From assembly GCA_903856085.1 (NCBI GenBank), contig CAIOAT010000027.1, positions 1 to 48,030 on the forward strand: a stretch of 48,030 nucleotides of DNA. The letters are read 5' to 3'. The position numbers and the translations under genes are program-made. This DNA is from Candidatus Omnitrophota bacterium (lineage in GTDB: Bacteria; Omnitrophota; Omnitrophia; Omnitrophales; Aquincolibacteriaceae). The number at the start of each line of letters is the position of its first letter. Position 1 is the first letter of the stretch. The notes beneath the pieces were generated by a model. That model was not told the DNA's origin and made no database searches. It worked only from the letters and a program-made list of their open reading frames with translations. This document shows positions 2,845 through 35,456 of this stretch, piece after piece.

Positions 2845-2907
2845 TCAATTGATCTCCAACCTTACTGTTTCGCGTGTGATCGCCGGCCATAATCAGCACC
2901 TACGGTC

Positions 2908-2934: not shown

Positions 2935-2946
2935 ATATATATTATT

Positions 2947-4057: not shown

Positions 4058-4148
4058 AAATATGCCCCACCCCAATTAGTTGTACCGGCCTCGCGAAGAG
4101 AATGACGGCAGGTTTGACCACATTAAATGTATCGCAAATAGCCCAGGC

Positions 4149-4310
4149 TCAATCTGTCGATTCAACTCTCAACGGTCGATCAAAGCCCTCTTTCCATAGC
4201 GTTTCAAAGATGGATCTTTTGAGCAATTCATCCCATAACTTGCCACTAAGCGACTCGCTGTATCCACTGTCCCAGGGACTGCCCGTGTCACCATGCAGTA
4301 TCTTAGTTTG
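4149..4310 (-). pseudogene. Remnant of an IS3-family transposase (OrfB C-terminal part)
   Basis: The minus-strand frame between stops at 4313 and 4149 encodes a GDTGSPWDSGYSESLSGKL segment followed by WDELLKRSIFETL. This matches the well-known rve-domain stretch PGSPWENGYxESFNGKLRDELLNxExF of IS3-family OrfB around its catalytic glutamate region. Only about 50 codons remain, the upstream DDE portion is absent, and the frame ends abruptly, so it is a decayed fragment. Inverted repeats were not identified. Confidence 0.7.
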
Positions 4311-4813
4311 CTAATCCCCAACCTATTGGACAACACACTCCGTTCGATTTCAGAAAGACGGACGTTTCACAAAGACGTTTAAAAGCCAGGCGTTCAAATC
4401 TGGCCTTCCATAGCAGAGACAAAATATTAACCCGCTTGGCAACGGTCTCTTGGCCACGTCGTCATTTCCCATCACACGCAAGCTTATTGTAACTCAAAAA
4501 CGACAATCTTGAATTGCAATTCGAGAAAATTCATAAAAATACAAATCTCGAAATCATTTACCGGAACATGCCCCCACACTCTCCTTGACAGCAAAACTTA
4601 GATAAACTATATTTCTGTCGTTGCTTTCATATTCATCAGTACACGCAGATTCAAGAATGTTAGACCCTAGGAATATCTATTGTCCTCTTGCTCCTTACAT
4701 GCCCGACCCAAGCACTAGTACAACAGTCGTAATAAATTATCGCAAAAAATGCTTCGCGATCGATTTTTTATTATGTCCCGTCTTTTAACCAAGCTGAGGC
4801 ATAAAAAGGTCCC
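4311..4813. other. Intergenic stretch without a recognisable gene
   Basis: About 500 bases, AT-rich toward the right. Apart from the promoter candidate near 4600, only unconvincing short frames are present. One minus-strand frame around 4325-4460 stays open for some 45 codons but resembles nothing known. It is probably decayed sequence connected with the neighbouring IS3 remnant. Confidence 0.5.
4585..4613 (+). promoter_or_regulatory. Candidate sigma70-type promoter for the plus-strand radical SAM gene
   Basis: A perfect TTGACA (4585-4590) is separated by 17 bases from TATATT (4608-4613). Transcription would give a leader of about 195 bases before the ATG at 4814. This is the only plus-strand gene in the host part, so it needs its own promoter. 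Confidence 0.45.
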
Positions 4814-6061: not shown

Positions 6062-6062
6062 A

Positions 6063-7175: not shown

Positions 7176-7297
7176 AATATTCTCATCGAGCTCATTCTTG
7201 ATTTTGATCTGACAATGATATTACCTCAAATTTGTCACAAAGCATTTTTCCTCACGGCCAAGGAGCTGGGCGCTTTACTTTCCACGGGCATACGACT

Positions 7298-8464
7298 TTA
7301 TAATCTGGCCCGTCCTTTAGCATACAGATAAAGACAATCACATTTGCTGCAAACTGAGAAGGCTCTCTTTCGTCTATATTGGCGAAATTTCATATAAGAC
7401 ATTCCATTCCAGATTTCCTCTACAGATTTATCTGCAAGGCTACCAAAAGTCAAGTCGGGATACGGCATACAGGGAGTAACTTGCCCCGTTGACAATACAT
7501 CCATACGCGCCCATTGCTTATGGCAAAAGTCATTGTACGGATTATTGTTTTCTTGATTCATGTACGCGTTGAGATCTTCGGGTTTCTGTAAATAGCTGGA
7601 GATGTAAATGGGCCAGCGGGAGCTTTTGATCTTCTCGCATTGGTTTATAAATTCCGTGATGTCTACCCCATAGGAAGATACATACCCCTTATGACTTTTA
7701 GGCATAACTCCGAAATCATTCTGTAGTTCCCGCTCATAAATCTCAGCCTGTTGCTCACTAAGACTCCACTGCAGATTAATGAGAATCCAATCCACTCCCA
7801 ATCCCACCATTTCTCGGCAAGTGTCATACAGTACTCCGACATTCTCAGGTTGCAAGGTGAATTGGATACCAACATAGTGCGAGGAGCGAAAAGATTTAAT
7901 TTTTTTTATATTGCTAACAACCTTATCGTATACCCCGCTCCCTCTCAGTAAATCATTCACCTCATTTGTTCCATCCAATGATATGTAAAAAATAAGATTA
8001 GGATTATTTTCGATGACGTCGAGATATTTGTCCACATGCAACCCGTTAGTACATATATAGGCACACGACTGATATTCTTTTAAAAGGGCGGCCAGATCCC
8101 GAAAACGTGTATACAGAAGCGGCTCACCGCCAGTGAGAATAAAAAGAGGGCGACGTTTCCCCGTCTCATGGAATATTTTTTCTACAATCTTCCAATCCAT
8201 TTCACGAGGTACGGGTAACTTATCTCCTGAGGAATAAACACCTGTTTTACCCCAAAGAAAACACATCGGACAGCGCAGATCACACACCTGGTTAAGATAC
8301 AACTTATAAGATAACGGTGGCGGAACCTGATTATCCTTATCTGAATTATGAAGCGCCCAAGAATACCTGTTATGGGACTTCACCTTAAACCTGATGAGGT
8401 GATTTATATGCGTAGGATATTTAACAAAAAGCTTGGCTATGTGTATTAAGCTCGGAACGTACAT
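7298..8464 (-). CDS. Radical SAM protein with SPASM-like C-terminus (paralogue 3)
   Basis: The 388-residue product has C61-DLR-C65-PM-C68, LTGGEPLL, YISLDG, and C-terminal cysteines in DFCHKQW, VTPCMPYPDL and VCSKCDCLYLY. It aligns end to end with paralogues 1 and 2: N-terminal extension (LFVKYPTHINHLIRFKVK), GVDWILINLQW and the final CxKCxCLYLY. The ATG follows GGTGA at 6 bases. Three copies of one enzyme type within 8 kb imply duplication followed by divergence on different substrates or positions. Confidence 0.85.
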   Translation of the reverse strand: MYVPSLIHIAKLFVKYPTHINHLIRFKVKSHNRYSWALHNSDKDNQVPPPLSYKLYLNQVCDLRCPMCFLWGKTGVYSSGDKLPVPREMDWKIVEKIFHETGKRRPLFILTGGEPLLYTRFRDLAALLKEYQSCAYICTNGLHVDKYLDVIENNPNLIFYISLDGTNEVNDLLRGSGVYDKVVSNIKKIKSFRSSHYVGIQFTLQPENVGVLYDTCREMVGLGVDWILINLQWSLSEQQAEIYERELQNDFGVMPKSHKGYVSSYGVDITEFINQCEKIKSSRWPIYISSYLQKPEDLNAYMNQENNNPYNDFCHKQWARMDVLSTGQVTPCMPYPDLTFGSLADKSVEEIWNGMSYMKFRQYRRKRAFSVCSKCDCLYLYAKGRARL

Positions 8465-8549
8465 ATGATTTCACCCAATTTGGCGCTGGTAAACGCTAAT
8501 ATTCTCTCAGAAACATGGTGTCTTTCTTATATTTCCAGAAAAGCCTCTA

Positions 8550-9830
8550 TTAAAAAAAAGAATCTTTCCCGGTTAAACCGGCCATCCAGCGGCGGAGCTG
8601 TTTACGATAATAGAACAGCCTCACCCTTTTTTGTCGTTCCTTCCGAACCGGCAATGGAATCTGGCCAGGAAGACGGACAGCAGACGCCCCTGGACGCTCT
8701 ACAAAGAACTCCACTTCAACCCTTTCAAAGGGAATCTTGAGCAGCACGTCCATGGTTTCCGTAAGATCTTCTTCTTCTTCTGAGGGAAACCCCACGATCA
8801 CATCCGTCCTCAAAGAAATGAATGGAGCCTTACGTAGAATCGCGGTTGCCCCGAATAAAACATCCTCTTTCGTATATTCCCGATTCATAAGCTTAAGAAT
8901 CCTGTTGCTACCGGATTGAAAATCAAAATGAATACATCGGATTCGCTTGGAAAGCACCTCGAGAAAACGGTCAAGATCCGACAAGATGTGCTTGGGATGT
9001 AAATTATGCATTTCTAGAGTAAAAGAATCCCCCAGACCCAGGATTGCCTCCAGAAGTTGTGAAAGCCTCAAATTTTCCAGGTCAAGTCCGTAGGCCGACA
9101 GGTCATCCGCAACAAGGACAAAATGATCACACCCCATTTTCAAGGCCTCACGAACCTCATTAACGATTGAATCAAGAGCACGGCTCTTAAGTCGTCCCCG
9201 GGCAATGCGGATCGCACAATACGCACAAAAGTTAGAACACCCTCTGGCGCATCTAACAAGATAGGCGCGAGGTGCGTACGCGTAGGTGGTATTTAATAAC
9301 CGTCCCAACATTACGGCGGCGTTGGGAGAAATTGTGTGCGTGGCCCAATGGACCCAACGCATAATTTCGTGAACAATCTGCCAATACTTGACCTTTCCGT
9401 GAAAAGAGAAAACAAAACTATCTTCTCCCTTCCCCTCATCGAAGGTCGCAGAAAATCCAAAATATTCCCGAGCCCGGTCGACCTCAGCAGCCGAAAAGAA
9501 CAAACAATCGGCCACTGTGCTGATCCTGGCTTTTAATTGGTCCGTCATGCAACCGGTGACGATAATTACTGCCCCCCGATCCCTGTGGGGCCGCATCTTC
9601 CGGACCAAATCTATCGTCCAATTTTCGGTTATCGGCACAACAACACACGCCCCGATGATAATGACCGAGGCTTCCGCAGGATCATCAACGGGTTCAAACC
9701 GATTTTTCAAAAAAAGCTCACGGAAGTCCCGACAATCCAGCGATAACGAGTGGCATCCCGCTTTCTTTGAAGCGATATGAAAAGTTAAAGGAGCATTCAC
9801 TCTGGATGTCTTTTCCGATTGACCGTTCAT
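8550..9830 (-). CDS. MiaB/MtaB-like radical SAM methylthiotransferase paralogue without TRAM domain
   Basis: The 426-residue protein has the methylthiotransferase plan. An N-terminal UPF0004-like domain keeps three cysteines (C26 in KKAGC, C62 in IIGAC, C94 in VTGC) that bind the auxiliary cluster. The radical SAM core follows with ARGC198-SNF-C202-AY-C205-AIRIARGRLKSR and later FQSGSNRILKLMNREYT and TDVIVGFPSE. True MiaB, RimO and MtaB end in a TRAM RNA-binding domain; here the protein stops soon after FVERPGA plus a basic helix. The NTC motif is replaced by GAC and an ~65-residue insertion separates the two domains. The target is therefore probably not tRNA or S12; a role in the surrounding pathway is inference. 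Confidence 0.75.
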   Translation of the reverse strand: MNGQSEKTSRVNAPLTFHIASKKAGCHSLSLDCRDFRELFLKNRFEPVDDPAEASVIIIGACVVVPITENWTIDLVRKMRPHRDRGAVIIVTGCMTDQLKARISTVADCLFFSAAEVDRAREYFGFSATFDEGKGEDSFVFSFHGKVKYWQIVHEIMRWVHWATHTISPNAAVMLGRLLNTTYAYAPRAYLVRCARGCSNFCAYCAIRIARGRLKSRALDSIVNEVREALKMGCDHFVLVADDLSAYGLDLENLRLSQLLEAILGLGDSFTLEMHNLHPKHILSDLDRFLEVLSKRIRCIHFDFQSGSNRILKLMNREYTKEDVLFGATAILRKAPFISLRTDVIVGFPSEEEEDLTETMDVLLKIPFERVEVEFFVERPGASAVRLPGQIPLPVRKERQKRVRLFYYRKQLRRWMAGLTGKDSFF

Positions 9831-17296: not shown

Positions 17297-17842
17297 TTAG
17301 ATTGAATACGGTCCGCTGAAATTGTCACCGGCGATATAGACGTCCAAAACGTCCGTCGCCGCGGTCATAGACACCTTTAGATTAGAAAACGGCGTTCCCT
17401 GGATCACGGAGGAAGGATTATTCGGAGACCCGCTCGGGAACTGGATATTCGGCTCGTACTGATTCAGAACCCCTGCATGGACGTTTCCGGACGCGCTCGT
17501 AAATGTAGCCGTATCCGTCGCGGCGCCAACGGGAGAAAGGTTCATCATCGTGACCCATAGGATCGCTGTCGCTCCGGTCGTCCATTTCCCCGCCGTGTTA
17601 TCCGTCGAGAACGTACCCGAGGTATGCGCGACCTTGCATTTATAAACTGTACCTCCGTTCGTCACTTTCTGCCCTACGGTGTACGCCGTTGACGTCTGCC
17701 ATGTATCGGCAACCACTAGGCCGGCCGTGGTCCCGCCGGTGCATGTGTACCCGTACTCTGTGCGGGTGCAGGAAACAGCAGTAGCAAACGCGGACGTTGA
17801 GATCAGAAGCAGAGCCAGTAAAAGCGAGATTACCTTTTTCAT
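17297..17842 (-). CDS. Secreted beta-rich protein with a carbohydrate-binding-type module
   Basis: The chosen ATG (17842) overlaps the upstream stop (ATGA) and has GGGG upstream; it gives 181 residues beginning with a Sec signal peptide (KKVISLLLALLLISTSAFA). A module at ~47-87 (WQTSTAYTVGQKVTNGG, VYKCKVAHTSG, ending W) has the W..aY.vGd.V...G..Y.C...H layout of small chitin-binding-like CBM5/12 modules and phage fibre domains. The C-terminal half is beta-rich. A cleavable signal peptide on a product of the fibre region is unusual: it may coat the cell surface or modify the receptor rather than enter virions. Confidence 0.6.
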   Translation of the reverse strand: MKKVISLLLALLLISTSAFATAVSCTRTEYGYTCTGGTTAGLVVADTWQTSTAYTVGQKVTNGGTVYKCKVAHTSGTFSTDNTAGKWTTGATAILWVTMMNLSPVGAATDTATFTSASGNVHAGVLNQYEPNIQFPSGSPNNPSSVIQGTPFSNLKVSMTAATDVLDVYIAGDNFSGPYSI

Positions 17843-18153
17843 AGTGTTTCCCCTTTTTGTTTTGTTGAAATTCCCGTTAGAAGTTCTCTCCCTAATGTTG
17901 TGATCTTGCAATCATGGTCAAGATGTCCGTCGTCCTGCAATGCCGCAACCGCAATCTCCCGTTTCTTCGCCTCGATCATGTCCTCAACTTCCTTAACCTT
18001 CAAGGCTTCTGCATCAGCCGCGGCCTTATCAGCGTTGGCTTGCTCACGCCTTGCTTTACAAGGTTCACACTCCGTTACGAGCGTGTAGCCTTTAACAGTT
18101 CCAATCTGATTCGGTTGTTCTTGCCAATCACAAAGACATTCGTTTAATTGCAT
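17839..18153 (-). CDS. Small helical protein with cysteine pairs
   Basis: The 104-residue protein begins with cysteines C6xC8 (NECLCDW) and C30xxC33 (CEPCKARRE), suggesting a metal knuckle. A charged alpha-helical region rich in Ala, Lys and Glu (DKAAADAEALKVKEVEDMIE) and a soluble tail follow. It directly follows the fibre genes and may act as a chaperone for fibre folding or attachment; this is inferred from position. Confidence 0.55.
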   Translation of the reverse strand: MQLNECLCDWQEQPNQIGTVKGYTLVTECEPCKARREQANADKAAADAEALKVKEVEDMIEAKKREIAVAALQDDGHLDHDCKITTLGRELLTGISTKQKGETL

Positions 18154-18165
18154 AGTTTTTCTCCT

Positions 18166-19242
18166 TTAAAGGTTTAATCTTTCAATGACAAACTCTGAAC
18201 CGATTCCGATAGCTCCCGTGTGGTTACTCAAGATGTCGATGTGCGTTATTTCGTCTGCGGTATTGTTCCAAGACGAACCCGCCAACATCGCATTGATTAT
18301 TGTCGTTCCAGAAATCCCGTTTATGACTTCAGAAATTCCAGTTCTCACGAATCCCGATTTCAAATAAAGAAGCATTTCGGTATGGTTGATGTTATTAAGC
18401 GCAACGCCTGACCCTGCGTACATCGAAGTAAGAGTTCCTCTTGCGGCTAGTGCGCTTGCATTTTGACCATAAACAAGTTGATACCCGCAGTTCGTTCCTC
18501 CGTCACCATTCAAGCGGATATAAAATCCTTCATCGGAATTGTTAGCGTTAACCCATCTGACCCTCACCCTAAGAATCTGGTCTTTCGTGTTTCCCAAGAG
18601 GCCAGATACGGTGATGGAAGTCTCAGCACTCCCCGCCACGGTGTGACGATACACCTCCTGCCACGCTCCTTTTAAAGTTCCACGAATATCAAGCTCGCCA
18701 GTTCTTAGACCGCTTGGAACGTGGACTTCTTTTAGGAGGATGAAGCGGGAGCCGATGCCGAAATCGCTCCAAAGAGTTATTGAAGTAATGTTGTCTGCGG
18801 TATTATTCCAAGAGTTACCAAATAATCTTGAGTAACCGACAGAAGTTCCGTTAATGTTCATGGCACTTTTTGTTACAACGGTTCTTACTGTTCCAGATTT
18901 TGCGTGGATTAAACTGTCAATTAAATTTACATTCCCAATAGCAGAAGAATATCCAAAACTAACTGCGGTATCATTCGTTGCTCTATTAGCCGTAACAGAA
19001 GCACTAGAGCCATCGACGTACTGATATCCGTAGTTAGCACCTGAATCTCCATTAAATCTAAAATTAAGATTTAATCCCCCCGCATTGTTACTCACCACCC
19101 TTGAGATAAGCCGATACTTCACATCGGTGTCACCGTCAAGACCGCTGATCGTGTACGAAGTCACGGAGGCGGCGAGTTCTCCGCTATCATGCACAATTTG
19201 CCAAGTTCGGTCTACGAATCCTTCAAGGCTTCCTGTTTTCAT
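18166..19242 (-). CDS. Tail-fibre-like protein with two copies of a ~175-residue domain
   Basis: The 358 residues consist of two tandem repeats of the domain that also forms the preceding 183-residue gene. Each copy shows SxTxSGLxG(D/N), a strand ending RVxxVN or VVS, FNGDxGxNxGYQxVxG, an ATN/LT loop, KSGxVRTxxS, GTxxxxxxLxGxSWNNTADxITxIxLxS and a final GIGSxFxxxxL. Copy 1 is ~10-178, copy 2 ~190-356. The WNNTADNITSI and GxGSxF endings resemble phage head or tail fibre domains. Starts by ATGA overlap with the upstream gene. Probably distal receptor-binding fibre units. Confidence 0.7.
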   Translation of the reverse strand: MKTGSLEGFVDRTWQIVHDSGELAASVTSYTISGLDGDTDVKYRLISRVVSNNAGGLNLNFRFNGDSGANYGYQYVDGSSASVTANRATNDTAVSFGYSSAIGNVNLIDSLIHAKSGTVRTVVTKSAMNINGTSVGYSRLFGNSWNNTADNITSITLWSDFGIGSRFILLKEVHVPSGLRTGELDIRGTLKGAWQEVYRHTVAGSAETSITVSGLLGNTKDQILRVRVRWVNANNSDEGFYIRLNGDGGTNCGYQLVYGQNASALAARGTLTSMYAGSGVALNNINHTEMLLYLKSGFVRTGISEVINGISGTTIINAMLAGSSWNNTADEITHIDILSNHTGAIGIGSEFVIERLNL

Positions 19243-19790
19243 GACCGCCTCGACTTTCTGTAAAGTTGGAAGGAACTACCCACGCCAATCCCACCCGCCT
19301 GACTTGCCGCAATCACAATCGAAGTGATGTTGTCGGCGGTGTTGTTCCACACGTTAGCCCATAGCCGTGAATACCCAACGGTTGTCCCAACAACATCCCA
19401 ACAAAAGTCCGAAATTACCGTTCGCACAAATCCAGACTTGGAAAATAATTTACATGAGGCTTGAGATATATTGTTTAATGAAGTGTTGTAACCTATATGG
19501 CACACTTGGTCATTTGTTGCCCGTCCCGCAGTTGCGGAAGTATTATTTCCATCAACGTATTGATATCCATAATTCGTTCCCACATCATTGTTGGGTCTAA
19601 AAAAAGTATAAGCAATTCCGTTATACCCATTCACGACCTTGCTCTCTAAAATGTATTCCTCGTCTACGTCACCGTTGAGGCCGCTGATGGTGAGGGAGGT
19701 AACTGCGGAACCCGCCACCGTATAATCATAAATCCTCTCCCATGTATCGCCCTTGATGGAGCCGAGGACTGTTAGTGGGCCGATCTTCAT
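19239..19790 (-). CDS. Tail-fibre-like protein with one copy of the repeated domain
   Basis: The start at 19790 overlaps the stop of the fibre-base gene (ATGA), giving 183 residues. The whole protein is one copy of the ~175-residue domain found twice in the next gene: TSLTISGLNGDVDEEY, VGTNYGYQYVDGN, GRATNDQ, KSGFVRTVISD, GTTVGYSRLW, VWNNTADNITSI, GIGVGSSFQLY. Splitting three copies over two ORFs suggests recent domain duplication with a stop separating the first unit, or a design with differently ended fibres. No signal peptide or transmembrane part is present. Confidence 0.7.
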   Translation of the reverse strand: MKIGPLTVLGSIKGDTWERIYDYTVAGSAVTSLTISGLNGDVDEEYILESKVVNGYNGIAYTFFRPNNDVGTNYGYQYVDGNNTSATAGRATNDQVCHIGYNTSLNNISQASCKLFSKSGFVRTVISDFCWDVVGTTVGYSRLWANVWNNTADNITSIVIAASQAGGIGVGSSFQLYRKSRRS

Positions 19791-20548
19791 TTGGCGACCC
19801 GAACTGACCACGTTCCCGCGATCGTGCCGAAGGACAATAGGGAAACGGTTAGCGTGTTCACTCCCGTCACGATCACAGAGTCAGGAATTATCATCGCTCC
19901 TGTGTTGTCAAGAATCGAGCAAGCGACATTCGTGGAGTTGAGATTATGAGTGACCGTGAGGACTCCCGTAGAAAGAGAGGCGTTTGTGAAGGTTGTGACG
20001 TAAGAACCTCCCGCAAGGGCCGCTGAAGCAGCGGCAGAAGCGGCAGAAGCGGCGGCGCTAACCTGAGCGGCTTGGCATACAGAGACAGCGACGGTTATGC
20101 CCTCAAGAAGCTCCGTCGGCGTTATGGAATTTTCTCCGATTGGTAATATTACCGCGCGGCTTATCTCCTCATAGAGTTGTTGCGCGATCATTACCGCTCT
20201 GTCATATCCCTCTTCGTATGTCGCGGCCGGAGTCTGGCTATTATCTTGTAGAGAAATAAGCTGAGAGATCGGAACTACTCTCTGAATAAAAATCTTGTAA
20301 TCGCTTGAAAGCGCGGCGTAGGCTCCAAGCAAAGTAACTGTCCCCAAATAAGTTGATTTTCCAGAAATCTTAGTAAGAGAAACGGTGTAATTCGTTGAAA
20401 TCGTGAGTTGCGTCAACACGCCTGTAGATATCCTGTAGACCGAAACGATCAAATCCGTCTGAAGATAGACCGGAAACTGGAAAGAAAACGCTGAACTGAG
20501 GCCATCCCCTGTATAAACAACCGTGTTTGAATTTGTTGAGACAGTCAT
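19787..20548 (-). CDS. Tail fibre, T7-gp17-type N-terminal (virion-binding) domain with Ala-rich coiled coil
   Basis: The first ~150 residues follow the phage_T7_tail N-terminal pattern: YTGDGLSSAFSFQFPVYLQTDL, YTVSL, GTVTLL, FIQRVVPISQ, then NSQTPAATYEEGYDRAVMIAQQL. That domain anchors fibres to the portal/tail tube of podoviruses. Next is a helical, Ala/Ser-rich coiled coil (SAAASAASAAASAALAGGS, ~168-186), then a small beta domain (~190-253) ending TWSVRVAK. It is the first fibre gene of the block and coupled by ATGA overlap to the repeated-domain proteins, suggesting they form one fibre assembly with exchangeable distal subunits. Confidence 0.8.
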   Translation of the reverse strand: MTVSTNSNTVVYTGDGLSSAFSFQFPVYLQTDLIVSVYRISTGVLTQLTISTNYTVSLTKISGKSTYLGTVTLLGAYAALSSDYKIFIQRVVPISQLISLQDNSQTPAATYEEGYDRAVMIAQQLYEEISRAVILPIGENSITPTELLEGITVAVSVCQAAQVSAAASAASAAASAALAGGSYVTTFTNASLSTGVLTVTHNLNSTNVACSILDNTGAMIIPDSVIVTGVNTLTVSLLSFGTIAGTWSVRVAK

Positions 20549-20628: not shown

Positions 20629-21888
20629 TCAAAAATCCAAGCCCACCGCCTTAGCATTTTCGATTTTCTCTAAAATACCGTCAATTCCTTTGATCGCGTC
20701 CGTTTCAAGTCCGAAAGCGTTTACATCGTCGGCGCTCTTTTTCAACTTCTCGACAACTTCCTTCGGAGTACCTCCGGCCGCGACGGAAACGATCATGTAC
20801 TCCTGACCTTTGACGCCGTAATACTCCCCGTCTTTGTTCTGACAGGCCATCATAAACCGGAAATCGTCGCGCTTCCCTTTCTCGAAATTCACAAGAGTAA
20901 AATAATCTTTCGCGTTCGAGGTTCTTAAAGCGTAAGCCCCGACGTACTTAAAATCGCACTCCACCGGGACCGGATCTCCCTTCCCGATCTGATACACGAA
21001 CTCCGTCCAGTTCTTTATGTACTTGGAATATAGCACCCCTAACGGAAGCGGGCACCGGCAGCATGGATCAATAAAATAATGTTCTTTCTCTGAGACGATT
21101 CGCTCCTCAGTAGACAACGCCCCGCGATAATCCATCTTCTCAAGGATAGGACGGATACCGTCTAGCGTGTCCATAAGGACCTCCGGTACATCTTCTTCCG
21201 CTTTCGCGACGCGACCCAAATAAGTATTTTTTTCCCATTCCACGCCATAAGAAAACGGGAGGTACAGTCCGTTCGCGTAGAAGCCATCATAGCCCGACTC
21301 TGATACGCACTCGACCATATCCTCGACGATAAACTCTATCTCCTCCGAGTAGATCCCGAAGTTAGGGCGCCGGTCGTGAAGCACTTGTTTAACGGAGTTG
21401 TAGTCCGGGATACAGAGAGTCTCAAAATCCCCTCTGAAATTGGCGTCCACCTTTACGACCTTCTTGGGATTAGCTTTGAGGTATTTTATAAGAGAGTCGT
21501 ATCCTTTAATCACCTCGAAAGGAATAACCCGGAGATCCACTGCTTCAAGAACCCTCTTAAACGCGATCCGGTCAGTCTCAAGTTTCTCCCCGACCCCGGC
21601 CCCGAATACGCACTTTTCAGGATACATCTTTTTGAGAAGCGTTATAAGCCCGTTCGTGCCTGTGTCGAAAGTCACGATCCCGTCTGCTAGGGCCGCGTAC
21701 TTCGCAACATCAATAAGCCTCACCTTCTCAAGAAATTCAAACTGGTGCCCCGGAGCGTACTCTACATACCTCGGAAACGGGGAAGAGTTTACCGTTAAAT
21801 AATAGACCTTGTTTTTCCCGCCCTCCGATAAAGCGTTCGCAAGCTCAACATAGAGGCCCGAACATATCACCAAAAAAGACTTACCCAC
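20629..21888 (-). CDS. ATP-grasp protein (PurD-like fold), function unknown, in phage tail module
   Basis: Start is a GTG with a GGGGGG run 6 bases upstream; 419 residues. Residues ~95-300 follow the ATP-grasp plan of GAR synthetase-like ligases: GAGVGEKLETDR (phosphate loop side), VVKVDANFRGDFET (145-157), the adenine-binding EFIVEDMVE (185-193), DGFYANGLYLPFSYGVE, STEERIV (259-265) and YFIDPCCRCPLPLG (271-284, metal-binding Asp275). ATP-grasp enzymes join a carboxylate to an amine or thiol using ATP. The N-terminal domain (to ~95) is a Rossmann-like strand pattern. True PurD does not sit in tail modules and the N-terminal domain differs, so this is a paralogue whose substrate is unknown; the context suggests modification of a virion protein, peptide or cell-surface precursor. 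Confidence 0.7.
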   Translation of the reverse strand: MGKSFLVICSGLYVELANALSEGGKNKVYYLTVNSSPFPRYVEYAPGHQFEFLEKVRLIDVAKYAALADGIVTFDTGTNGLITLLKKMYPEKCVFGAGVGEKLETDRIAFKRVLEAVDLRVIPFEVIKGYDSLIKYLKANPKKVVKVDANFRGDFETLCIPDYNSVKQVLHDRRPNFGIYSEEIEFIVEDMVECVSESGYDGFYANGLYLPFSYGVEWEKNTYLGRVAKAEEDVPEVLMDTLDGIRPILEKMDYRGALSTEERIVSEKEHYFIDPCCRCPLPLGVLYSKYIKNWTEFVYQIGKGDPVPVECDFKYVGAYALRTSNAKDYFTLVNFEKGKRDDFRFMMACQNKDGEYYGVKGQEYMIVSVAAGGTPKEVVEKLKKSADDVNAFGLETDAIKGIDGILEKIENAKAVGLDF

Positions 21889-21917: not shown

Positions 21918-22160
21918 ATGTTTAGATCCATTCTTAGAGCGTGGTTCTTCGTCGTTTTGACAGGATCGCTTACCGCCCTAGTCTGGATCTTCCGACCCTG
22001 GAAGAAACTTCCTGAGCATAAATTCGATTCTCGCCATACGTTGCTTCTTTGCGCTTGCGCGATCATTTTCCCTATCGTCCTCGTTTTATTTCTTCGTTCC
22101 GACTTCGCTCCGGAGTGGCTAAAAAACTTTGTCGATTCCGCGCCTCCTCCGGACTATTGA
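21918..22160 (+). CDS. Small two-span membrane protein on the plus strand
   Basis: 80 residues with two hydrophobic segments (about 8-25, AWFFVVLTGSLTALVWIF, and 42-60, LLLCACAIIFPIVLVLFL) and a short polar end (SAPPPDY). It is the only likely plus-strand gene in the phage part, in a 265-base gap between minus-strand genes, and its end overlaps the convergent giant gene by 7 bases. TATAAT lies at 21907-21912, placing a start site almost at the ATG (leaderless). No ribosome binding site is at normal distance. Could be a holin-like or exclusion protein, or spurious. Confidence 0.4.
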   Translation: MFRSILRAWFFVVLTGSLTALVWIFRPWKKLPEHKFDSRHTLLLCACAIIFPIVLVLFLRSDFAPEWLKNFVDSAPPPDY

Positions 22161-25100
22161 AAATTCTCCTCGTAAAGTTTTTCAATCCTCGCCTGCTGTT
22201 CCGGCGTCATTTCTTTCTTCATCTTATTTGAATATTTCTTTTCGATAATGTCCCGTAGAATTTCTTTCTCTTTCTCGTTTGCTTTTTTGTAGACCTTGAT
22301 TGCTTCCTCGACCGTAAGGTGCGGCGCGACTCTCTCTAGGTAACTCATTTCCGATTCCTTGATAAGCTGCTCCGCTTCTCGGTTCGTGATCGTTCCATCG
22401 TCTGCGGCCTTATAAACGGCATCGTAGTCTTTGTTCTGCATGAACTTCGCTAGGATCTCAGCCTTGTCCTGCGCGTGTTTCGAGTTTTCTTTGGTGCGTG
22501 ATCCTACCGGTACTTTTGCTGACGCGAACTTCTGCGCCGCTTGTTCCGCTTTTGTCATATTCACGGACTGAGGGGATGGCATTACCCCGATAAGCTGCTC
22601 CGGGCTCCATCCTGTTTTATTGACGTTTCTTGCCGTAAATGGAATTGCGCTTGTTCCGACAAATTTCATCTCGTCCATGATCTGCTGCATTATCGGGTCG
22701 TCCTCGTTTCGGATCTCCGTACCGTAGAAATCTTTGTTATCAAGCATTTGAGCGATCATGCTGTTTTGAGGGGCTACCTTGTTCGTAACTGTTTTCCACG
22801 GATCGGTCGAATAGTGGTAAATGTCCTTCATGTAAGACGGAAGAGAGACGCGCTGCTCCTTTCCGTTCTTATCAATTTTTCCGTTCCTGGGGAAGAAATA
22901 ATCTTTTAGATCCTGCGGGGCTTCTCCGGTGTGGAGGTAGTTATAAATGGCACCGTAGAGCCCTGTCACGACCGGCAACGCCATTGTATAGGCCATCTTG
23001 TGCGTAAACTTCGCTTTCTTACCGGAGGCAACGTCCTTAACGAATTTAAGGGTATCTATGGCCCCCCCTCCAAGCTCCCGAAAGGTTCCAAGGTTCCATC
23101 CCACTGATCGGACGGATACCATGAGAAGATCCTTTGTTGTCTTGTGCCAGAAGAGATTATCGTAGACGAGTTGACCCATCCGGTTATCAACGCTATCCCA
23201 AACGTCCTGTACCTTTTTTCTTAATTCCGCATGGCCCATATTCGGATTTCTCTCGATCTCTGACTGAGCCAGGTCAAAGAACACCCCGAGTTTTTGACGC
23301 GGGACGATCTCTGAGAGGATTGGCTGCGTGATTGCTTCAAGCGCGGCAAGTGGCGCGGTCATAATTCCTTTAACGACCTTCCCCTCTTTAAACGCTGCCT
23401 GCATATTCTTAAACGCGGTCGTAGCATAGAAAGAGTCCATCCTTGCCCGTCCTCCGGCCATTACCATTGATTCCGCTATGAGAGCCGTCTTTGCGTCCGT
23501 AGGTTTTCCGTACCACGCATTAAGGAGCTTGTCTCCTTTGATAAGGTTCGTGATCGCCGGCACTCCTGAGATCCCCGCAACAACGTCACCAACTCCTTTA
23601 AGCTCACCTGATCCGACTTTCTCAAATCCAAGAGCGACGCGGGATATGCAAGCGTCCAGAGAGGTAAACCCAAGATGGAACAGACCGGAAAGCTGAAACT
23701 GGTTCAAGGTGTTCCCGGCGTTCCGGTACAAATCAAAGAACGTATTTCCGCGGAGCCCCGGAGAAAGGTAATTGTTTATCACCGTCGCGGCGTTCTCTGG
23801 CATGTACCAGTATCCGTTTATCACCATGCCGCCGACGCTTCCGGTGCCGGTCATTACTTTTTTCGGAATACCATGCTTAATATCAAGCAACGGTTTAAGG
23901 CGCGGGTCCGACTGTAGAAATTCTCTATACATTTTGTAGACGTTAGGCGCGACTTTCTTAAATTTGTCTGGAGCCTGGATCATAGCCTCAAGCATCGTCG
24001 CCATCTTCTCGACGCCTTTACGTCCATAAGCTCCGACCTTCTTGAGATCCGCGAGGTCCCGAAGCTCCTTATTAATCGTTTTTTGCATCTCAAGTTTTTG
24101 AACGTCGGTCAGCCGTCCCTCGCGCTTGGCCTTCCCGGCCATCCGATCAAGAATAAAATCAGCCTTTGGCCTTTTTCCTCCAAGAAACTTGTCAAGCAAT
24201 CCAAACATTTCATCCAACTGATGCCCTCCTTCATGAGCTACGGTGCTTGGAGGTGTCGCTGTTCTCGTTGTAACCGTCCCAGGGCCAGGGCGTCCCGTCT
24301 TTGGATCTATGGGGCCTGGTTGAGAATATCCAAGAGCTTTTCCCCCAATTTTGAGACGCCTCTCGTGCTTTATTCCAAGAGAGTCTAAAACCGCCTGGAG
24401 CGCGTCCATCATTTCTTCATCCTGGTATTCCTTGACCTTGTACTCAGGAGATCCGTACACCGTCGAAATATTGTCGTCGACCTTCTTCCATGCCTCAGGT
24501 CGTTCCGCGCCGACAGCGACAAACTTCGCCAATCCTTCCGACTTCATAATGTTTAGCGTCTCGTGAGCCAGGATATACTTGTCCATTTCCCTAGCCTTGA
24601 GCAGCACAAGATCAACGGGGTTGTAAGACACCGGCTCCAGGCCGGCTGCGATACCGTCTTTGATTGATTCGATGGTGCGTTTCTTGAGGAAAGACTTTCC
24701 GCCTTCAAAGGGACGCTTAGATCCCATCTGTAGAAATACGTCCTGCGCTTTCTTGGGGTCTTTCCAGATATGCGGGAAATAATTATCAATGAACGTCTGG
24801 AGCTTCCCGGTCCCTAGCCTCTGGATCTTCTCGCGCCTAAGGTCCAGTTCGTTTCGGATCGTGTCCGCTATCGTCTGGAGCTCCGGAGTAGGCTGTTTTG
24901 CGCCTGTCTCGATCGCGTCCATGAAATAAACGAGCTTTGCCTTGTCCATCTTGTTAAACATGTTTCTAGCTCTTGCAAGGGATACCTCCATCACGTCATA
25001 AGCCCGGACTGACTTTGCAATCTGTTCCCTCAACGTCTCCGCTGTCATTCTTGAGTATTTGTCCAAGGTAGGCGCGGCAAACGTCTCCTGTATTCCCTTC

Positions 25101-27979
25101 GCCATCTTCCCGGCTGTCTCAACGGAAGCGACGATCTCACGCACTCCGGGGATAGCGTCAATAGCGACAGATCCTTTTTCGTTACCAAATAGCTTTCCTT
25201 GCTTCCCTTCGTAGGCGGCGCGTTCGAGGTCCGTCATGGCCGTTGTCTGTTCCTTGAGGGTGCGCGGCTTTCCAAACTCCGCTTTTTTGTAAGACGGCAG
25301 TTTTGCTTTAGCGTTGTCGACTGTTCTTTTTACTGCTTCGAGTTCTTCCTTCGACATTTTCCTGCCGTTAATCTTCCCGTCCTTCAAGATCATTTCACCT
25401 TCGGCAATACTGTTCTTGATCTCTTGTGTCCGCGCTGCATCGGATTCGATAAGATCCGATTGAGCTCTTTCCCATGCTTCCCCATAAGCGGTAGTCTTTG
25501 GGTTTAGCTTGTCGGCTCCCATCTTTTTCAATTCCTTGATTCTCTCTTTAGCCGCCCATAAGTTAAATTCGCCTTCGGACATTTTGGCCTTTTTAAACTC
25601 CGCCCTGTAGATCCTTGTGCTTGGACCGGCTTTGGAGTTCCATGCAGTTTGCAGTTCCGGGTCATTCCCTTTCATTTCACGGAAAGGATAGGCAATATGA
25701 ACCTTTTCACCATTAACCGTTTGAGTTTCAAACATAAGGGCATAGCCTTCGTTTGCAAGAAACTCGGCTTTTGAGATTCCGACATAAGTGATCCCCGGAG
25801 CATCCCAATAATCAATTCGGGAGTTCAAAGTCTCTTTCCCGCTTTTTGCCGGCACTCCGATCTGGATAACCTTATCCCCAGGCTGTAATCCGAATTTTTC
25901 AACGGGATCAATTTTTGGCGTCCCTGTTACAACGTATCCGATCCCCTTGTTTGAATATATTTCGTATGGTGGATTTGTTTTTTCAAGAGCGGCCGCGACG
26001 TTCTTTTGTTCTTCTTGGGGCGTTTCTTTGGCAGGATTCTCGTCTCCGATCTTGATCTCTCCGGACGGTTTCTCCGGGTCAAGTTCGAGCTTCGGGGATT
26101 CTGAGGGGGCAAGGATCTCTTTTACTTTCTCGTAATCGGAGCGGAGCTGCGCGGAGACTTCATCAACGACAATGCGGCGGATCTGAGGGTTTTTGTTCTT
26201 ATCGGCCCATATCTTTAATGCTTCGAGGTTTTCCTGGTCGTGGCCCTGGAGGAATTGCTCACGGATATAATCCGTTCCTCTCGTAAGATTCCCGGATTCA
26301 TCGACGAGACTTTCGATCCCGTCGATTGCACTTCTTAGCTTTGCGTCTTTCTCCCCTGAAGATCCTTCTTCATTCCCTCGAAGATCTGAAGCCGCTTTTT
26401 CGATTTCGTCGACCGGGACACCGCTTCCTTCAATTTCTTCTTTTGTTCTTCGCTCATACTCGGCATGGCGTTCTGCCTCCGTTTTAAGATGCTCTATTTT
26501 ACTCTCAAAAAGTCCAGTGAGAAGGCTTTTCTGTTTCTCCGTAAGCGGCTTGTTTTCAAGGAAAACGTCGATCACTTTAAGAGATTCTTTCTTCGTGTAT
26601 CCTTTATTTTTAAAATACTCCGGGAAAGTAGACTCTTCATAGCCGGCAACGGTATCCTCGATAGTTCCGGCCTGGTCCGGTTGATTGACGAATTTACGGC
26701 CTGCCGTTCCTTCCTCGATCTCAGCCCGCATTTGCTTGATCCCGTAGTGTACGGGGTCTTGGCCTTCTTCGTAGCCTGGAAGAAGTGTTTTAGCGTCCGC
26801 TTCAGTGATCGTTCTTTCCGGAAACTGATAAAGCGTTTTCGGTGATCTTGGCTTCTTGCTCTTGCTTGGTTTCTTCGGTTCGTCTTTAAGCGCGGCTTTT
26901 ACGATCGTCTCCGCCGGGATCTCGATACTGGCCCCTGTCTTTTTTGCGGCCTCGATTGTCTCGGGCTTTACTCCTAGTAGCTCCTCCATCTTCGCGCCAA
27001 AATCTTCTTTAAACGCCGTTTCAAACTTCGCAAGGTGCTCCGGAGTAATCTGAAACGATGTCGGTAAACCATGAGCTTTCATCTTCCAGTACGAGAATTT
27101 TTCTAAGATGTTTTGCCTGCCCCATTGTTTCAAACGATCCGGTTCAAAAATTGAGGGTCTTGGCATCATGTCTCCTTCTTTGATGCCTTTCGCTCTCGAA
27201 TAGCGGTACGTCGTTGCATCGGACGCGGCGCGGCCTCCAGGAAGGCCGTGCATAAATCCACCGGCGATCTCACCCTTAACGATGAAGTCCGCAAGCTCAA
27301 TGGCTCCCCTTGCTGTATTGCTTGCGTCTGAGGGTATCCATTTTTCGGTAGGGATAAGGTGATCCAAAGCGGAGAACGCAAGAAAGCCTACTGCGGTTCC
27401 GATGGGATCAATAACCGCGCCCGTGGCGACGCCTATCTGCATCAATGCGCCAAGATATTCTTTGTTGCTTGGATGATCCGGACGGATACCTGTAATCTTC
27501 GGGTTTCTTGCAAATTCCTCAAAATGCGCCTCAACGTCATGCAAGGACAATCCTGTTGATTCCGCTATCGCTTTTGATCTCTCCTTAACGTAATCATCCC
27601 CAAACCTCTCACGCATCGTCTTTGATTCACCGTAAATGCTCGGTAAGTCTCGCTGCCTTTTTAACTCTTGCTGAATGGCATAGATATTTTGGGATTTTGC
27701 GTTTGCTTCCTCCGGGCCCCCCTGGATCATCTTTCGAGCACCGGATTTAAGATCCGTCTCCGCTTCGCGCTTTCCTACGCCCATTGGCCCAATAACAGAT
27801 GCTTTCAAAGCTCCTTTGATACTTCCCCATACGTCATAGGATTTTGAAGGACCAATGGAAAGGTGTTCCGGTTCAATCGCTGATTCAACGTCCGGGGCTT
27901 GTGATAAAGTCTTTTGTCCCTCGGTTCCTTCCTTGAGCTCCGGGGCGGCTGCTGCGGACTCCAGATCAATTTCGGGCAT
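22154..27979 (-). CDS. Giant internal virion / ejection protein with a HEGGH metallopeptidase motif
   Basis: The 1,941-residue product is by far the largest gene, placed after two smaller internal virion proteins as in T7-like phages (gp14, gp15, gp16 order). Most of it is helical and charged. Residues ~1-320 have two hydrophobic stretches (LGALMQIGVATGAVIDPIG); a middle region includes Pro/Lys-rich linkers and an H1249-EGG-H1253-QLDEMF zinc-peptidase (HExxH) motif; the C-terminal ~450 residues contain further hydrophobic segments and a basic tail. Ejection proteins of this kind cross the envelope to form the DNA conduit, and some carry peptidoglycan-cutting or peptidase domains. The role as polyvalent protein is inferred from size, place and motif. 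Confidence 0.7.
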   Translation of the reverse strand: MPEIDLESAAAAPELKEGTEGQKTLSQAPDVESAIEPEHLSIGPSKSYDVWGSIKGALKASVIGPMGVGKREAETDLKSGARKMIQGGPEEANAKSQNIYAIQQELKRQRDLPSIYGESKTMRERFGDDYVKERSKAIAESTGLSLHDVEAHFEEFARNPKITGIRPDHPSNKEYLGALMQIGVATGAVIDPIGTAVGFLAFSALDHLIPTEKWIPSDASNTARGAIELADFIVKGEIAGGFMHGLPGGRAASDATTYRYSRAKGIKEGDMMPRPSIFEPDRLKQWGRQNILEKFSYWKMKAHGLPTSFQITPEHLAKFETAFKEDFGAKMEELLGVKPETIEAAKKTGASIEIPAETIVKAALKDEPKKPSKSKKPRSPKTLYQFPERTITEADAKTLLPGYEEGQDPVHYGIKQMRAEIEEGTAGRKFVNQPDQAGTIEDTVAGYEESTFPEYFKNKGYTKKESLKVIDVFLENKPLTEKQKSLLTGLFESKIEHLKTEAERHAEYERRTKEEIEGSGVPVDEIEKAASDLRGNEEGSSGEKDAKLRSAIDGIESLVDESGNLTRGTDYIREQFLQGHDQENLEALKIWADKNKNPQIRRIVVDEVSAQLRSDYEKVKEILAPSESPKLELDPEKPSGEIKIGDENPAKETPQEEQKNVAAALEKTNPPYEIYSNKGIGYVVTGTPKIDPVEKFGLQPGDKVIQIGVPAKSGKETLNSRIDYWDAPGITYVGISKAEFLANEGYALMFETQTVNGEKVHIAYPFREMKGNDPELQTAWNSKAGPSTRIYRAEFKKAKMSEGEFNLWAAKERIKELKKMGADKLNPKTTAYGEAWERAQSDLIESDAARTQEIKNSIAEGEMILKDGKINGRKMSKEELEAVKRTVDNAKAKLPSYKKAEFGKPRTLKEQTTAMTDLERAAYEGKQGKLFGNEKGSVAIDAIPGVREIVASVETAGKMAKGIQETFAAPTLDKYSRMTAETLREQIAKSVRAYDVMEVSLARARNMFNKMDKAKLVYFMDAIETGAKQPTPELQTIADTIRNELDLRREKIQRLGTGKLQTFIDNYFPHIWKDPKKAQDVFLQMGSKRPFEGGKSFLKKRTIESIKDGIAAGLEPVSYNPVDLVLLKAREMDKYILAHETLNIMKSEGLAKFVAVGAERPEAWKKVDDNISTVYGSPEYKVKEYQDEEMMDALQAVLDSLGIKHERRLKIGGKALGYSQPGPIDPKTGRPGPGTVTTRTATPPSTVAHEGGHQLDEMFGLLDKFLGGKRPKADFILDRMAGKAKREGRLTDVQKLEMQKTINKELRDLADLKKVGAYGRKGVEKMATMLEAMIQAPDKFKKVAPNVYKMYREFLQSDPRLKPLLDIKHGIPKKVMTGTGSVGGMVINGYWYMPENAATVINNYLSPGLRGNTFFDLYRNAGNTLNQFQLSGLFHLGFTSLDACISRVALGFEKVGSGELKGVGDVVAGISGVPAITNLIKGDKLLNAWYGKPTDAKTALIAESMVMAGGRARMDSFYATTAFKNMQAAFKEGKVVKGIMTAPLAALEAITQPILSEIVPRQKLGVFFDLAQSEIERNPNMGHAELRKKVQDVWDSVDNRMGQLVYDNLFWHKTTKDLLMVSVRSVGWNLGTFRELGGGAIDTLKFVKDVASGKKAKFTHKMAYTMALPVVTGLYGAIYNYLHTGEAPQDLKDYFFPRNGKIDKNGKEQRVSLPSYMKDIYHYSTDPWKTVTNKVAPQNSMIAQMLDNKDFYGTEIRNEDDPIMQQIMDEMKFVGTSAIPFTARNVNKTGWSPEQLIGVMPSPQSVNMTKAEQAAQKFASAKVPVGSRTKENSKHAQDKAEILAKFMQNKDYDAVYKAADDGTITNREAEQLIKESEMSYLERVAPHLTVEEAIKVYKKANEKEKEILRDIIEKKYSNKMKKEMTPEQQARIEKLYEENFQ

Positions 27980-29994: not shown

Positions 29995-32454
29995 TTAGTC
30001 CTTGGTTTCGGTTTCAGATTTTAAGAGAACGCATAAAAGCATGGCAGGAAGCGGCTGATCCTGAACTATTACAATTTCATCGTCCGTCGCCCATCCCCCA
30101 TCAATCGGCATTGGGATATCTCCTGTGTAAAGAGGAACTGGATGGCCGAGCGGAGGGTTCTTTGGAGTTTGAATAACCATCGGTTTTAAAAACTTTGGAT
30201 CGTCTTTCTTCCCGATCTTCAGTCCGAGAGTCCGATCAACACGGAGATACGCCTCGTAAATCCTTCGCATGACTCCCTGCCCGCCTTCTGTGATTCTCAA
30301 AAGCTGTAGTTTCCCCCTATACGGAAGCCCTCCGATAATCTGCGCGGATTTGTTAGGAAGCGTAATCTGCCCTGAACCATCGACTAGGAACCTCTGTTGC
30401 GCGGCCGGAATTGCTCCGTCGGTCTGAACTGATATCGTCTCTCCGATTAAATGGTCGAATCCGGATATCGTTGACACCATTTTCCAAACTTTCCCACCGC
30501 TTGAATAAGTTCCGAAAGATGTCCCATCGATAGTGTTCCCGAGCTCATCTTTCAACTGGAACGTATGGGTCGTAACTCCGGCTACGATGTAAATGTTTCC
30601 ATTGAGAGGAGAAGAAACGACTTTTGGAAATCCGTTCGGTCCTACGCCAACGACGCTCACAAGATCAATCTTGATCTGGTCTCCATTCGAGAATCCATGA
30701 CTAGACGCCGTGACGACTACAGGGTTTGCGTTTGTGAATCCAGTTATTGTTATAGGCGTGTTTAGAGCCAAAGCGCAACTAAGACGGATAGGCTCCCATT
30801 GATTTACGAACGTCTCAGCCGAGAAATACTCGACGAACCGGCATACGCTCCCGTTAATAACCCTGTTCACAATCACCCATATCTGGTCGTCCGCACCGTC
30901 GACCTGTAGGATCGCGAGGGATTCAAAGAGTCCTTCCCCACCGCTCGATGCTCCTGCCGTAAGGCGCGACCATCCCATGACCTGTTGCTCCGCGTTCCGG
31001 ACAAGCACCGCGATTTGACCGTCTGCGCGAAGTACCCATATCCTGTCATTCGGGCTTTGTTGATGTGCCATCTCAACCGCCCCGCCTCCGTCTCTCAAGA
31101 TGTGATCCGCAAAGATGCACATATCCGCGGCGAGTTGCCGGTTTTTAAGATAATCGTAATAGAGCTCGCGCACCTGAAAGAGATTCGCTTGGAGATAATA
31201 GAGATAGCTTGAAATCTTCTCGGGTTGGATGGCGGCGGTAGGATAATTCGTATCGTTATTGACATTGATGTTCTTAGCGGAAATCGTCGCTCCGGCAGTA
31301 CCGGATTGGATTGTGAACGTCCCTCCACTTGTCCCTGCTTGAAGGGATGAAGGGCAGGAGGCCATCCACCTTATCGCATTTCCCTGAACATCGGATACCG
31401 TAAAATCCACCGCCGCCGAATCTACGTTTGCATCTACCTTAAAATTGTCCGGTGCATTAATGACTGAACCCCAACCGCTTTTCGGCTGATAAGTCGTATT
31501 CGCATAATAAAGCCTCTGCTCATGGAATTGACAAGTCGCCGGCCACCCGCGCACATCGGAAAACGCGGCTTCTGCCCATAGCGTAAACGCGCTTGCGCTC
31601 GTGAGTGTTCCCGCGACGCCCTCCGGCTCTGACTGAACCGCTGCGGTCGCATGAAGTCCATCTGACACGGTAAGAATCTTAACAACACCGGTATTGATTT
31701 TCCAAAGGCTTCCAACATGACCGGCTTGGAATACGGGGACAGTTGCGGCAAGCACCCAATACCCTGACGCAAGGTCCGCGGCAAAGGTCGAACCTCCGAC
31801 ATTTGCGACGAGACATTTGTAAGTGCTTCCTCCATTCGTCACATAATCAGGCATATCGGGACCTGGGACATACGCTATCCCCGCGCCCCAAGCAGGGACA
31901 GTTACAACAAGATTGACGTTACCAGTAGCGGACGATGGGGTAATCGTTAGTTTCGTAATGTTGTCATCAAGGAACGGGCCTCGTATGAACGAAACCGGAG
32001 TCATGGAAAATGAATTTGAGGCGAGTCTAACGAGCTTATATGGCTTGTAGGTATTGAGCGGCGAGGTAATATACATCGTGTCCTCGTCCTGCGCCCTGTG
32101 AATCTGAAACACATCGGCCGAGTCGTAAGGAGTGACGATCTCTACAGGATTACCGCCATTCAACACCTGACCGTTATTCGCCCAAAATCGGAAGTAATGA
32201 TAACCAACCTCGACAATGTAATTCTGCGTCGAGGAAAAAGAGAATTTCATAATCTTGGTTTTCTTGGTCGGGTCTTTTACTGATCCTGCGTACACCGTCC
32301 CAGGCGCGAACATAGCCCCGCCGATCTGGTGGAGCAGGAAATTCTCCGCGCACCCGAGCGCGTTAGGATACTGAACGAGATCGAACCGTCCTTTTGCGAG
32401 GGGAGACCATTCGCCGGCATTAAAATTACAATGAGGCGTTAAGGCTTTTGGCAT
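29995..32454 (-). CDS. Tail tubular protein B (gp12-like nozzle)
   Basis: The 819-residue protein begins FNAGEWSPLAKGRFDLVQYPNA and continues NFLLHQIGGAMFAPGTVYAG and KFSFSSTQNYIVEVGYHYFRFW, the signature of the podovirus/gp12-family tail nozzle protein (NFxxGExSPxxxGRxDxxxY, GGxxxRPGTxF). An inserted small beta domain near ~165-245 (TYKCLVANVGGSTF) resembles modules in other genes of this phage. A further insert lies at ~565-650 (ITITGFTNANPVVVTASS). In T7 the protein forms the lower tail through which DNA leaves. Overlaps the preceding small cysteine-rich gene by 16 bases. Confidence 0.85.
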   Translation of the reverse strand: MPKALTPHCNFNAGEWSPLAKGRFDLVQYPNALGCAENFLLHQIGGAMFAPGTVYAGSVKDPTKKTKIMKFSFSSTQNYIVEVGYHYFRFWANNGQVLNGGNPVEIVTPYDSADVFQIHRAQDEDTMYITSPLNTYKPYKLVRLASNSFSMTPVSFIRGPFLDDNITKLTITPSSATGNVNLVVTVPAWGAGIAYVPGPDMPDYVTNGGSTYKCLVANVGGSTFAADLASGYWVLAATVPVFQAGHVGSLWKINTGVVKILTVSDGLHATAAVQSEPEGVAGTLTSASAFTLWAEAAFSDVRGWPATCQFHEQRLYYANTTYQPKSGWGSVINAPDNFKVDANVDSAAVDFTVSDVQGNAIRWMASCPSSLQAGTSGGTFTIQSGTAGATISAKNINVNNDTNYPTAAIQPEKISSYLYYLQANLFQVRELYYDYLKNRQLAADMCIFADHILRDGGGAVEMAHQQSPNDRIWVLRADGQIAVLVRNAEQQVMGWSRLTAGASSGGEGLFESLAILQVDGADDQIWVIVNRVINGSVCRFVEYFSAETFVNQWEPIRLSCALALNTPITITGFTNANPVVVTASSHGFSNGDQIKIDLVSVVGVGPNGFPKVVSSPLNGNIYIVAGVTTHTFQLKDELGNTIDGTSFGTYSSGGKVWKMVSTISGFDHLIGETISVQTDGAIPAAQQRFLVDGSGQITLPNKSAQIIGGLPYRGKLQLLRITEGGQGVMRRIYEAYLRVDRTLGLKIGKKDDPKFLKPMVIQTPKNPPLGHPVPLYTGDIPMPIDGGWATDDEIVIVQDQPLPAMLLCVLLKSETETKD

Positions 32455-34580: not shown

Positions 34581-35456
34581 CTACGCGGCCAACTCCACGC
34601 ATTGAATTTTCACTACGCGCACTTCCTCAAGGCGGGTTGCGTTCATGCACATCTTGAGATAAATCTGCCAAGCATAGTTCTTGTCTTTCCGTTCATCCAA
34701 ACGGCTCTCGATCTCCTTCTGGATGCCAAGAACAACGCCTTTCTTCTGGTACGCGAAACATTCGCGGTACGCGGCCGTGGCGTCCTGCGTCAAACGCTCG
34801 CAAGGAACCCAATTAAAACCGAGCCAAGTCTTGAGCTCGCCTTCGTACAACGGCTTCACGATGTTGAAATCCGAGCTCGTGACGTCCGTGGTGAGAAGAA
34901 GGTCCTGCAACTGCGCGGCGGTATGCGCCATGAAACGATCCGACTTCTCGACCTGATTGTGGTTCAGGTTCCGCATGGCCGAAATGCAATAGCCCTTGGT
35001 CATGCCGGTATTCGCGACGCCCGCGATCAACTGCCCTGCGGGGAACGTCACCGGTGTTGCACCACCAACGCCTTTGTACGCGGTTCCACCCAACGCACCG
35101 ATGATAAGATCATCAATCTTGCGTTCGGCCGCGGCTTTCTTGGCTTGGAGGTAAGCACCCTTGGGATCGGTAATCATTGCCAGGGCGTCCGTGGGGTCCT
35201 CAAGCGTGTTACCCACGAAATAGCGCGGGGTAAGCATACGCCTCTGGTGGTCGCCGGACTGAACGGGTGTATCCTGATAACGACCGGATAACTCGATCAT
35301 ATCGTCCGCGGCTCCGTACTGGTCGACGAACTTGGCAAGCCCTTTGAAGTTTGAATCAATCATGACCGTCGGACGAAGAGTCGAGGTCATTTGCTGCGCG
35401 AGCAACGTAATATTGTCGCTGTAAGTCTTTTTGGCTAATACATCTGGTGCGCCCAT
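34581..35456 (-). CDS. Major capsid protein
   Basis: The 291-residue product, first after the scaffold region, matches the phage capsid pattern of the BPP-1-like group: YSDNITLLAQQMTSTLRPTV, TPVQSGDHQRRML, EDPTDALAMITDPKGAYL, AAAERKIDDLIIGAL, DRFMAHTAAQLQDLL and a C-terminal VRVVKIQCVELAA. The family forms the HK97-like shell (in BPP-1 with a permuted topology). It follows strong AAAAGGAGATTAC, suiting high expression. No protease gene is visible, so no maturation cleavage is implied. Confidence 0.85.
   Translation of the reverse strand: MGAPDVLAKKTYSDNITLLAQQMTSTLRPTVMIDSNFKGLAKFVDQYGAADDMIELSGRYQDTPVQSGDHQRRMLTPRYFVGNTLEDPTDALAMITDPKGAYLQAKKAAAERKIDDLIIGALGGTAYKGVGGATPVTFPAGQLIAGVANTGMTKGYCISAMRNLNHNQVEKSDRFMAHTAAQLQDLLLTTDVTSSDFNIVKPLYEGELKTWLGFNWVPCERLTQDATAAYRECFAYQKKGVVLGIQKEIESRLDERKDKNYAWQIYLKMCMNATRLEEVRVVKIQCVELAA

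Follow-up and report, generated by a model that had tools for sequence, protein, structure and literature searches.

Genes and features of the locus

The window, by which we mean the whole stretch of 48,030 nucleotides analysed here, is a 48-kb contig (C27) within a 2.36-Mb Candidatus Omnitrophota genome. From ~12 kb onward it consists of a prophage related to HTVC010P-type podoviruses, with the gene order terminase, portal, capsid, tail tubular proteins A and B, giant protein, ATP-grasp protein and fibre. The relationship is indicated by the major capsid protein gene (34581–35456, minus strand; phrog_3437, E 5e-74), while the tail module is marked by the gene for tail tubular protein B (29995–32454, minus strand; phrog_376, E 1.8e-148), which also matches HTVC010P-type phages in tblastn. 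The phage DNA of the window is also present, at 100%, as an IMG/VR contig (L001). The gene under study, encoding a PurD-like ATP-grasp ligase of 419 aa with a GTG start, occupies positions 20629–21888 on the minus strand. As reported in the preliminary description, it is located between a giant gene and a fibre gene on the same strand, the former (22154–27979, minus strand) lying upstream and encoding 1941 aa, the latter (19787–20548, minus strand; phrog_1640, E 1.5e-20) lying downstream and encoding a tail fibre with a T7-type N-terminus. The giant protein, previously termed an ejection protein, has no family match in Pfam or PHROGs; the place of its gene after that of tail tubular protein B matches the arrangement in phage MW202898 and in Pelagibacter phages, a synteny by which it is a putative internal or ejection protein of the virion. 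MW202898, the nearest annotated relative phage, lacks the ATP-grasp gene and its giant gene directly abuts the fibre gene.

Further features were observed around the gene. The 265-nt gap between the giant and ATP-grasp genes is exactly occupied by an 80-aa ORF on the opposite strand (21918–22160, plus strand), having a TATAAT-like sequence immediately 5' of its ATG and encoding a hydrophobic, probably two-helix membrane protein that by eye resembles a holin or toxin. A late gene (17297–17911, minus strand) located beyond the fibre genes carries a carbohydrate-binding module of type CBM5/12 (Pfam, E 1.5e-7) and possibly encodes a receptor- or glycan-binding part, and a 358-aa gene (18166–19242, minus strand), likewise downstream of those genes, matches Vat-type acetyltransferases very weakly (E 0.05). 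Beside the prophage, at 427–9830, are encoded five radical-SAM/SPASM proteins in a row and a UPF0004/radical-SAM protein; peptides or surface molecules are frequent modification targets of SPASM proteins.

An ATP-grasp family of PurD descent in uncultured phages

Searched as a single sequence, the 419-aa protein matched no Pfam or NCBIfam model and gave matches at chance level only in PHROGs (E 0.19) and among PDB sequences (E 0.5). No relative was detected by tblastn in 50,697 isolate phage records, either with this protein or with three further members of the family, and fold prediction from the window sequence alone was useless (pLDDT 33). Relatives were obtained by running IUPAC patterns for YFIDP[T/C]xRxP, of which the YFIDPT variant was partly guessed, on IMG/VR. 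Among the 36 stretches retrieved, one is the window's own phage and the other 35 carry phmmer relatives (E 1e-41 to 1e-10). A subsequent profile search identified 101 relatives, of which 80 were kept and 61 remained after those at ≥90% identity were dropped. The family is present on ~100 IMG/VR contigs and on four GTDB contigs, all of them short contigs of MAGs. The window sequence is its most divergent member, ~25–30% identical to the rest of the 62-sequence alignment and carried on the longest branch of the tree (end branch 2.38). Members are not recognised by PHROGs or Pfam, and the literature searched, a scope outside which the 2009 amidoligase survey (PMC3268129) falls, describes phage ATP-grasp enzymes of other kinds only. 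We consider this to be an undescribed, PurD-like family of uncultured phages, missed by Pfam, NCBIfam, PHROGs and the isolate phage records.

The AlphaFold2 model of the window protein, computed with the 62-sequence alignment, reached a pLDDT of 94.3 and a pTM of 0.91. Foldseek against the PDB ranked GAR synthetases first (2yw2, E 1.7e-20, TM 0.74/0.73, a whole-length match), followed by biotin carboxylases, the top matches all being ATP-grasp enzymes. Independently of the model, the profile of 62 relatives matches the PurD structures 2yw2, 5vev and 1vkz by sequence (E 5.5e-7 to 4e-5), and the family is collinear over 375 residues (hhalign) with the host's own PurD, a separate canonical protein encoded in the host genome (257 bits). 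The N, ATP-grasp and C domain order of PurD is kept over the whole length of the window protein as an N-terminal Rossmann-like domain (residues 1–97), an ATP-grasp core (residues ~98–305) and a GARS_C-like domain (residues ~306–419), their limits being approximate and taken from the PurD alignment. Together these data confirm the PurD-like ATP-grasp core originally proposed from the sequence, and the motifs quoted for it, VVKVDANFRGDFET, STEERIV and YFIDPCCRCP, prove to be conserved blocks of the family. The expected ATP-grasp fold was found, with PurD and biotin carboxylase closest and not a RimK- or TTL-like fold.

Across the 62 sequences K146, R152, E156, D201, E217, E261, D274, R278 and N293 are invariant. 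By comparison with PurD, K146 is the putative ATP lysine, and E217, E261 and D274 are putative acidic metal-binding residues. The codons of K146, R152 and E156-T157 (21418–21453, minus strand) cover this putative ATP-binding lysine and an RGxxET lid in place of the glycine-rich lid of PurD; those of E261, D274 and R278-P280 (21049–21108, minus strand) cover acidic, probably metal-binding residues and the active-site arginine, and replace LE(Y/F)NxRFGDPE of PurD. Relative to PurD, K146 is retained as the ATP lysine, D274 supplies an acidic side chain where PurD has its Glu, and R278 is also retained. In contrast, the GxGGREHA phosphoribosylamine loop is absent, reading CS-GLYVELA in the window and DxGxFxxxA in the family, as is LE(F/Y)NxRFGDPE, for which the window has FIDPCCRCPLP and the family YFIDPTxRxPSPP. 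Since the phosphoribosylamine loop and GDPE are replaced, the substrates would differ from those of PurD. The fold, the profile and the kept residues indicate a PurD-descended ATP-grasp enzyme, yet the replacement of GDPE, the glycine-rich lid and the GGREHA loop makes GAR synthetase activity very improbable. A role as the GAR synthetase of the host was rejected, as the host PurD is present and the PurD motifs are lost.

Relatives intermediate in character were also observed. The window protein weakly matches chromosomal PurD-like proteins of the same phylum (E ~1e-4 per genome), called GARS_A/GARS_C by Pfam, and a second, more PurD-like phage subfamily (L156:2694–3998, L170:4311–5663 and others) is akin to these host-phylum paralogues. 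Both the paralogues (L004–L011) and the L156-type phage proteins are similar to the window's family in profile-profile comparison (E 4.4e-25 over 395 residues) but keep a PurD-like RFGY, and the phage ones also GPNTG; in the window's family STExR and IDPTxRxP stand in their place. Standard libraries recognise the second phage subfamily and paralogues L004–L011 weakly or not at all. A related PurD-like paralogue is carried by chromosomes of the host's phylum, but homologues are not confined to host metabolism genes, and it is supported that the window gene is not a stray host metabolic gene.

Virion-gene context and partner genes

In 55 of the 61 dereplicated loci the ATP-grasp gene shares its strand with the gene immediately upstream, and in 46 the two are ≤30 nt apart. 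About 48 of the 61 lie in a late virion module, a count that becomes 23/61 when neighbours with a proven family alone are considered. Two contexts predominate, one between portal or portal-like, terminase and scaffold genes (28/61) and the other between giant (ejection), tail tubular and fibre genes (20/61, window included); context is clustered on the tree, yet it has changed at least four times at well-supported branches. PHROG assignments of the large neighbours give portals upstream (7/45) and tail fibre proteins downstream (6/46), also terminases, with many unrecognised. The ~767-aa gene c2, upstream of the ATP-grasp gene in 19 loci, had no PDB match and aligned to the P22-type portal cluster with an hhalign probability of 3%; it may be portal-like, solely by its synteny with terminase-like and scaffold-like genes. 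It is supported that the ATP-grasp gene is tied to virion genes, but not specifically to fibres. The coupling to virion genes proposed earlier holds in so far as, in many divergent phages, the gene repeatedly runs in the same direction as genes of virion morphogenesis; the tie to fibres does not extend to the family, fibre genes not being the common neighbour. Fibre-specific coupling was rejected as a general rule, the gene lying between portal-like and scaffold-like genes in the 28 loci of the first context.

Two genes recur beside the ATP-grasp gene. The first, c1, encodes a small, metal-site-like HExxE protein of ~126 aa, is found in 30/61 loci and often overlaps the ATP-grasp start by 4 nt. 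Its invariant residues are H48, E52, D70, P92, Y93, H97 and E104, and it is without a match in Pfam, PHROGs or the PDB. When c1 itself was used as the query, 199 relatives were found and 80 kept, 51 of which have an ATP-grasp relative ≤4 kb away, mostly directly adjacent; 14 of these 51 are accounted for by the second, more PurD-like subfamily, which has the same small gene as partner. For about one third of c1 genes (L182, L189, L155, L172 and others) no ATP-grasp relative was detected within 4 kb at this sensitivity. The second gene, c9, encodes a divergent AdoMet-decarboxylase-like protein and lies directly upstream of the ATP-grasp gene in eight loci of one clade (for example L086:9637–9999, L063:9631–9990 and L102:9634–10002). 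It matches Pfam AdoMet_dc with E 2.5e-6, L086 scoring 28.2 bits against a cut-off of 25 and L063 19.8 bits, under the cut-off. The processing residues of AdoMet decarboxylase are Ser63, His68 and Cys83 in T. maritima numbering (PMC10407285). Like AdoMet decarboxylase-derived phage decarboxylases (PMC9992855, PMC10407285), c9 keeps the serine and cysteine, as invariant Ser66 and Cys86, but the catalytic/processing histidine is replaced by an invariant Asp71, which makes its activity uncertain. Profile searches of the window detected neither c1 nor c9.

Proposed function and alternatives

We propose, tentatively and at slightly less than even confidence, that the protein is an apparently intact ligase of the PurD lineage which uses ATP to form amide bonds between carboxylates and amines and is produced alongside the virion proteins; a small amine or carboxylate would be a likelier substrate for it than a virion protein. 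In the first step, predicted from the fold and the conserved residues, ATP bound through K146, with metals on acidic side chains, E261 and D274 among them, would phosphorylate a carboxylate; an amine would then attack the acyl phosphate, giving an amide. In many phages the ligase would work with c1, encoded just upstream, and in the c9-containing clade the AdoMet-decarboxylase-like protein could supply the amine. Since the window has no detectable c1 or c9, the enzyme of this phage may act by itself or rely on partners that are unrecognised or supplied by the host. Thus amide-bond ligation, the small-molecule class of substrate and late expression are all predicted properties. Ligase function is favoured by the PurD architecture over the whole length with its invariant residues, by the loss of PurD substrate motifs in a host that retains PurD, by the tight co-oriented packing and by the linkage to c1 and c9; against it are counted the position of the window sequence as the most divergent member, the lack of both partners in its phage and the proven neighbours in only 23/61 loci. 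The preference for a small molecule would follow from analogy with PurD and from c9 as neighbour in a single clade, with its histidine changed to aspartate.

We give roughly one chance in four to a RimK- or tubulin-ligase-like reaction in which an amino acid or amine is joined to a carboxylate of a structural protein, be it the fibre, the scaffold, the portal or the ejection protein. Such modification of a virion protein, as originally suggested, would agree with the repeated occurrence of the gene amid virion genes of divergent phages and with the at least four changes of context, after which the gene is usually still in a late module. Nevertheless, the adjoining virion gene varies from portal-like or scaffold to ejection or fibre, and this inconstancy implies no single substrate; the fold is of the whole-length PurD/biotin-carboxylase type and not RimK-like, and a small amine accords better with a decarboxylase-like companion. 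Because of the whole-length PurD architecture and that companion in one clade, a small-molecule ligase is at least as well indicated, and virion-protein modification, while possible, is not favoured over it. A cargo gene (moron) in the late operon, unrelated to the particle and serving to control superinfection or to aid the metabolism of the host or infected cell, is unlikely. The abutting giant and fibre genes of MW202898, and the placement of the ATP-grasp gene after the giant gene and its 265-nt gap, together with an opposite-strand ORF, are compatible with cargo, but the tight packing, the recurrent virion-module place across 61 divergent loci and the loss of the metabolic motifs of PurD are not what cargo predicts. 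Less probable still is modification of a wall or surface precursor that would change adsorption or block superinfection: fibre genes adjoin in the window and in several other loci, and wall precursors are built by ATP-grasp enzymes, but membrane or glycan enzymes are not among the recurrent neighbours and most loci are not beside fibres. An ordinary phage-borne PurD boosting purine supply, although PurD is the closest family by both sequence and fold, is highly improbable given the replaced GGREHA loop, glycine-rich lid and GDPE, a host that owns PurD, and the lack of adjoining purine genes, both in the window and among recurrent neighbours.

The preferred reading, a small-molecule amide ligase, can be compared with known enzymes. 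With PurD (2yw2, 1vkz, 1gso) the family shares the whole-length three-domain fold, collinear homology, the ATP lysine, one acidic active-site residue and the arginine, but it lacks the GGREHA loop and glycine-rich lid, has CPLP or xPSP for GDPE and resides among virion genes. ORF28 of the LUZ24-like phage UFV-P2 is likewise a phage ATP-grasp enzyme adjoining other amide-bond enzymes, an amidoligase and a glutamine amidotransferase (PMC3890496); it differs in being 291 aa long and in an early, positive-strand module, and isolate phages yielded no tblastn match to the window's family. Phages also encode ATP-grasp peptide ligases of the R2K/CDC123 type, for which amide-bond formation and modification of host proteins are predicted (PMC4431377, PMC7824862), but the model of the window protein matched no protein of the viral library over its whole length, CDC123-like ones included (best TMq 0.47).

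As a more speculative extension, which we consider rather unlikely but worth stating, the PurD-derived ligase and c1, joined in one clade by a repurposed AdoMet-decarboxylase fold, may constitute a widespread phage system for the synthesis of a specific amide that particle assembly or DNA delivery requires; this product would either be packaged with the DNA as a small molecule or be attached covalently to virion proteins as a tag. The ligase and c1 offer a concrete target for assay. The sequence from PurD through PurD-like paralogues to this family suggests a stepwise re-tooling of the PurD lineage by phages, and should the ligase act on virion components to modify them, or produce a cofactor for assembly, it would represent an unrecognised biosynthetic step in the building of tailed phages.
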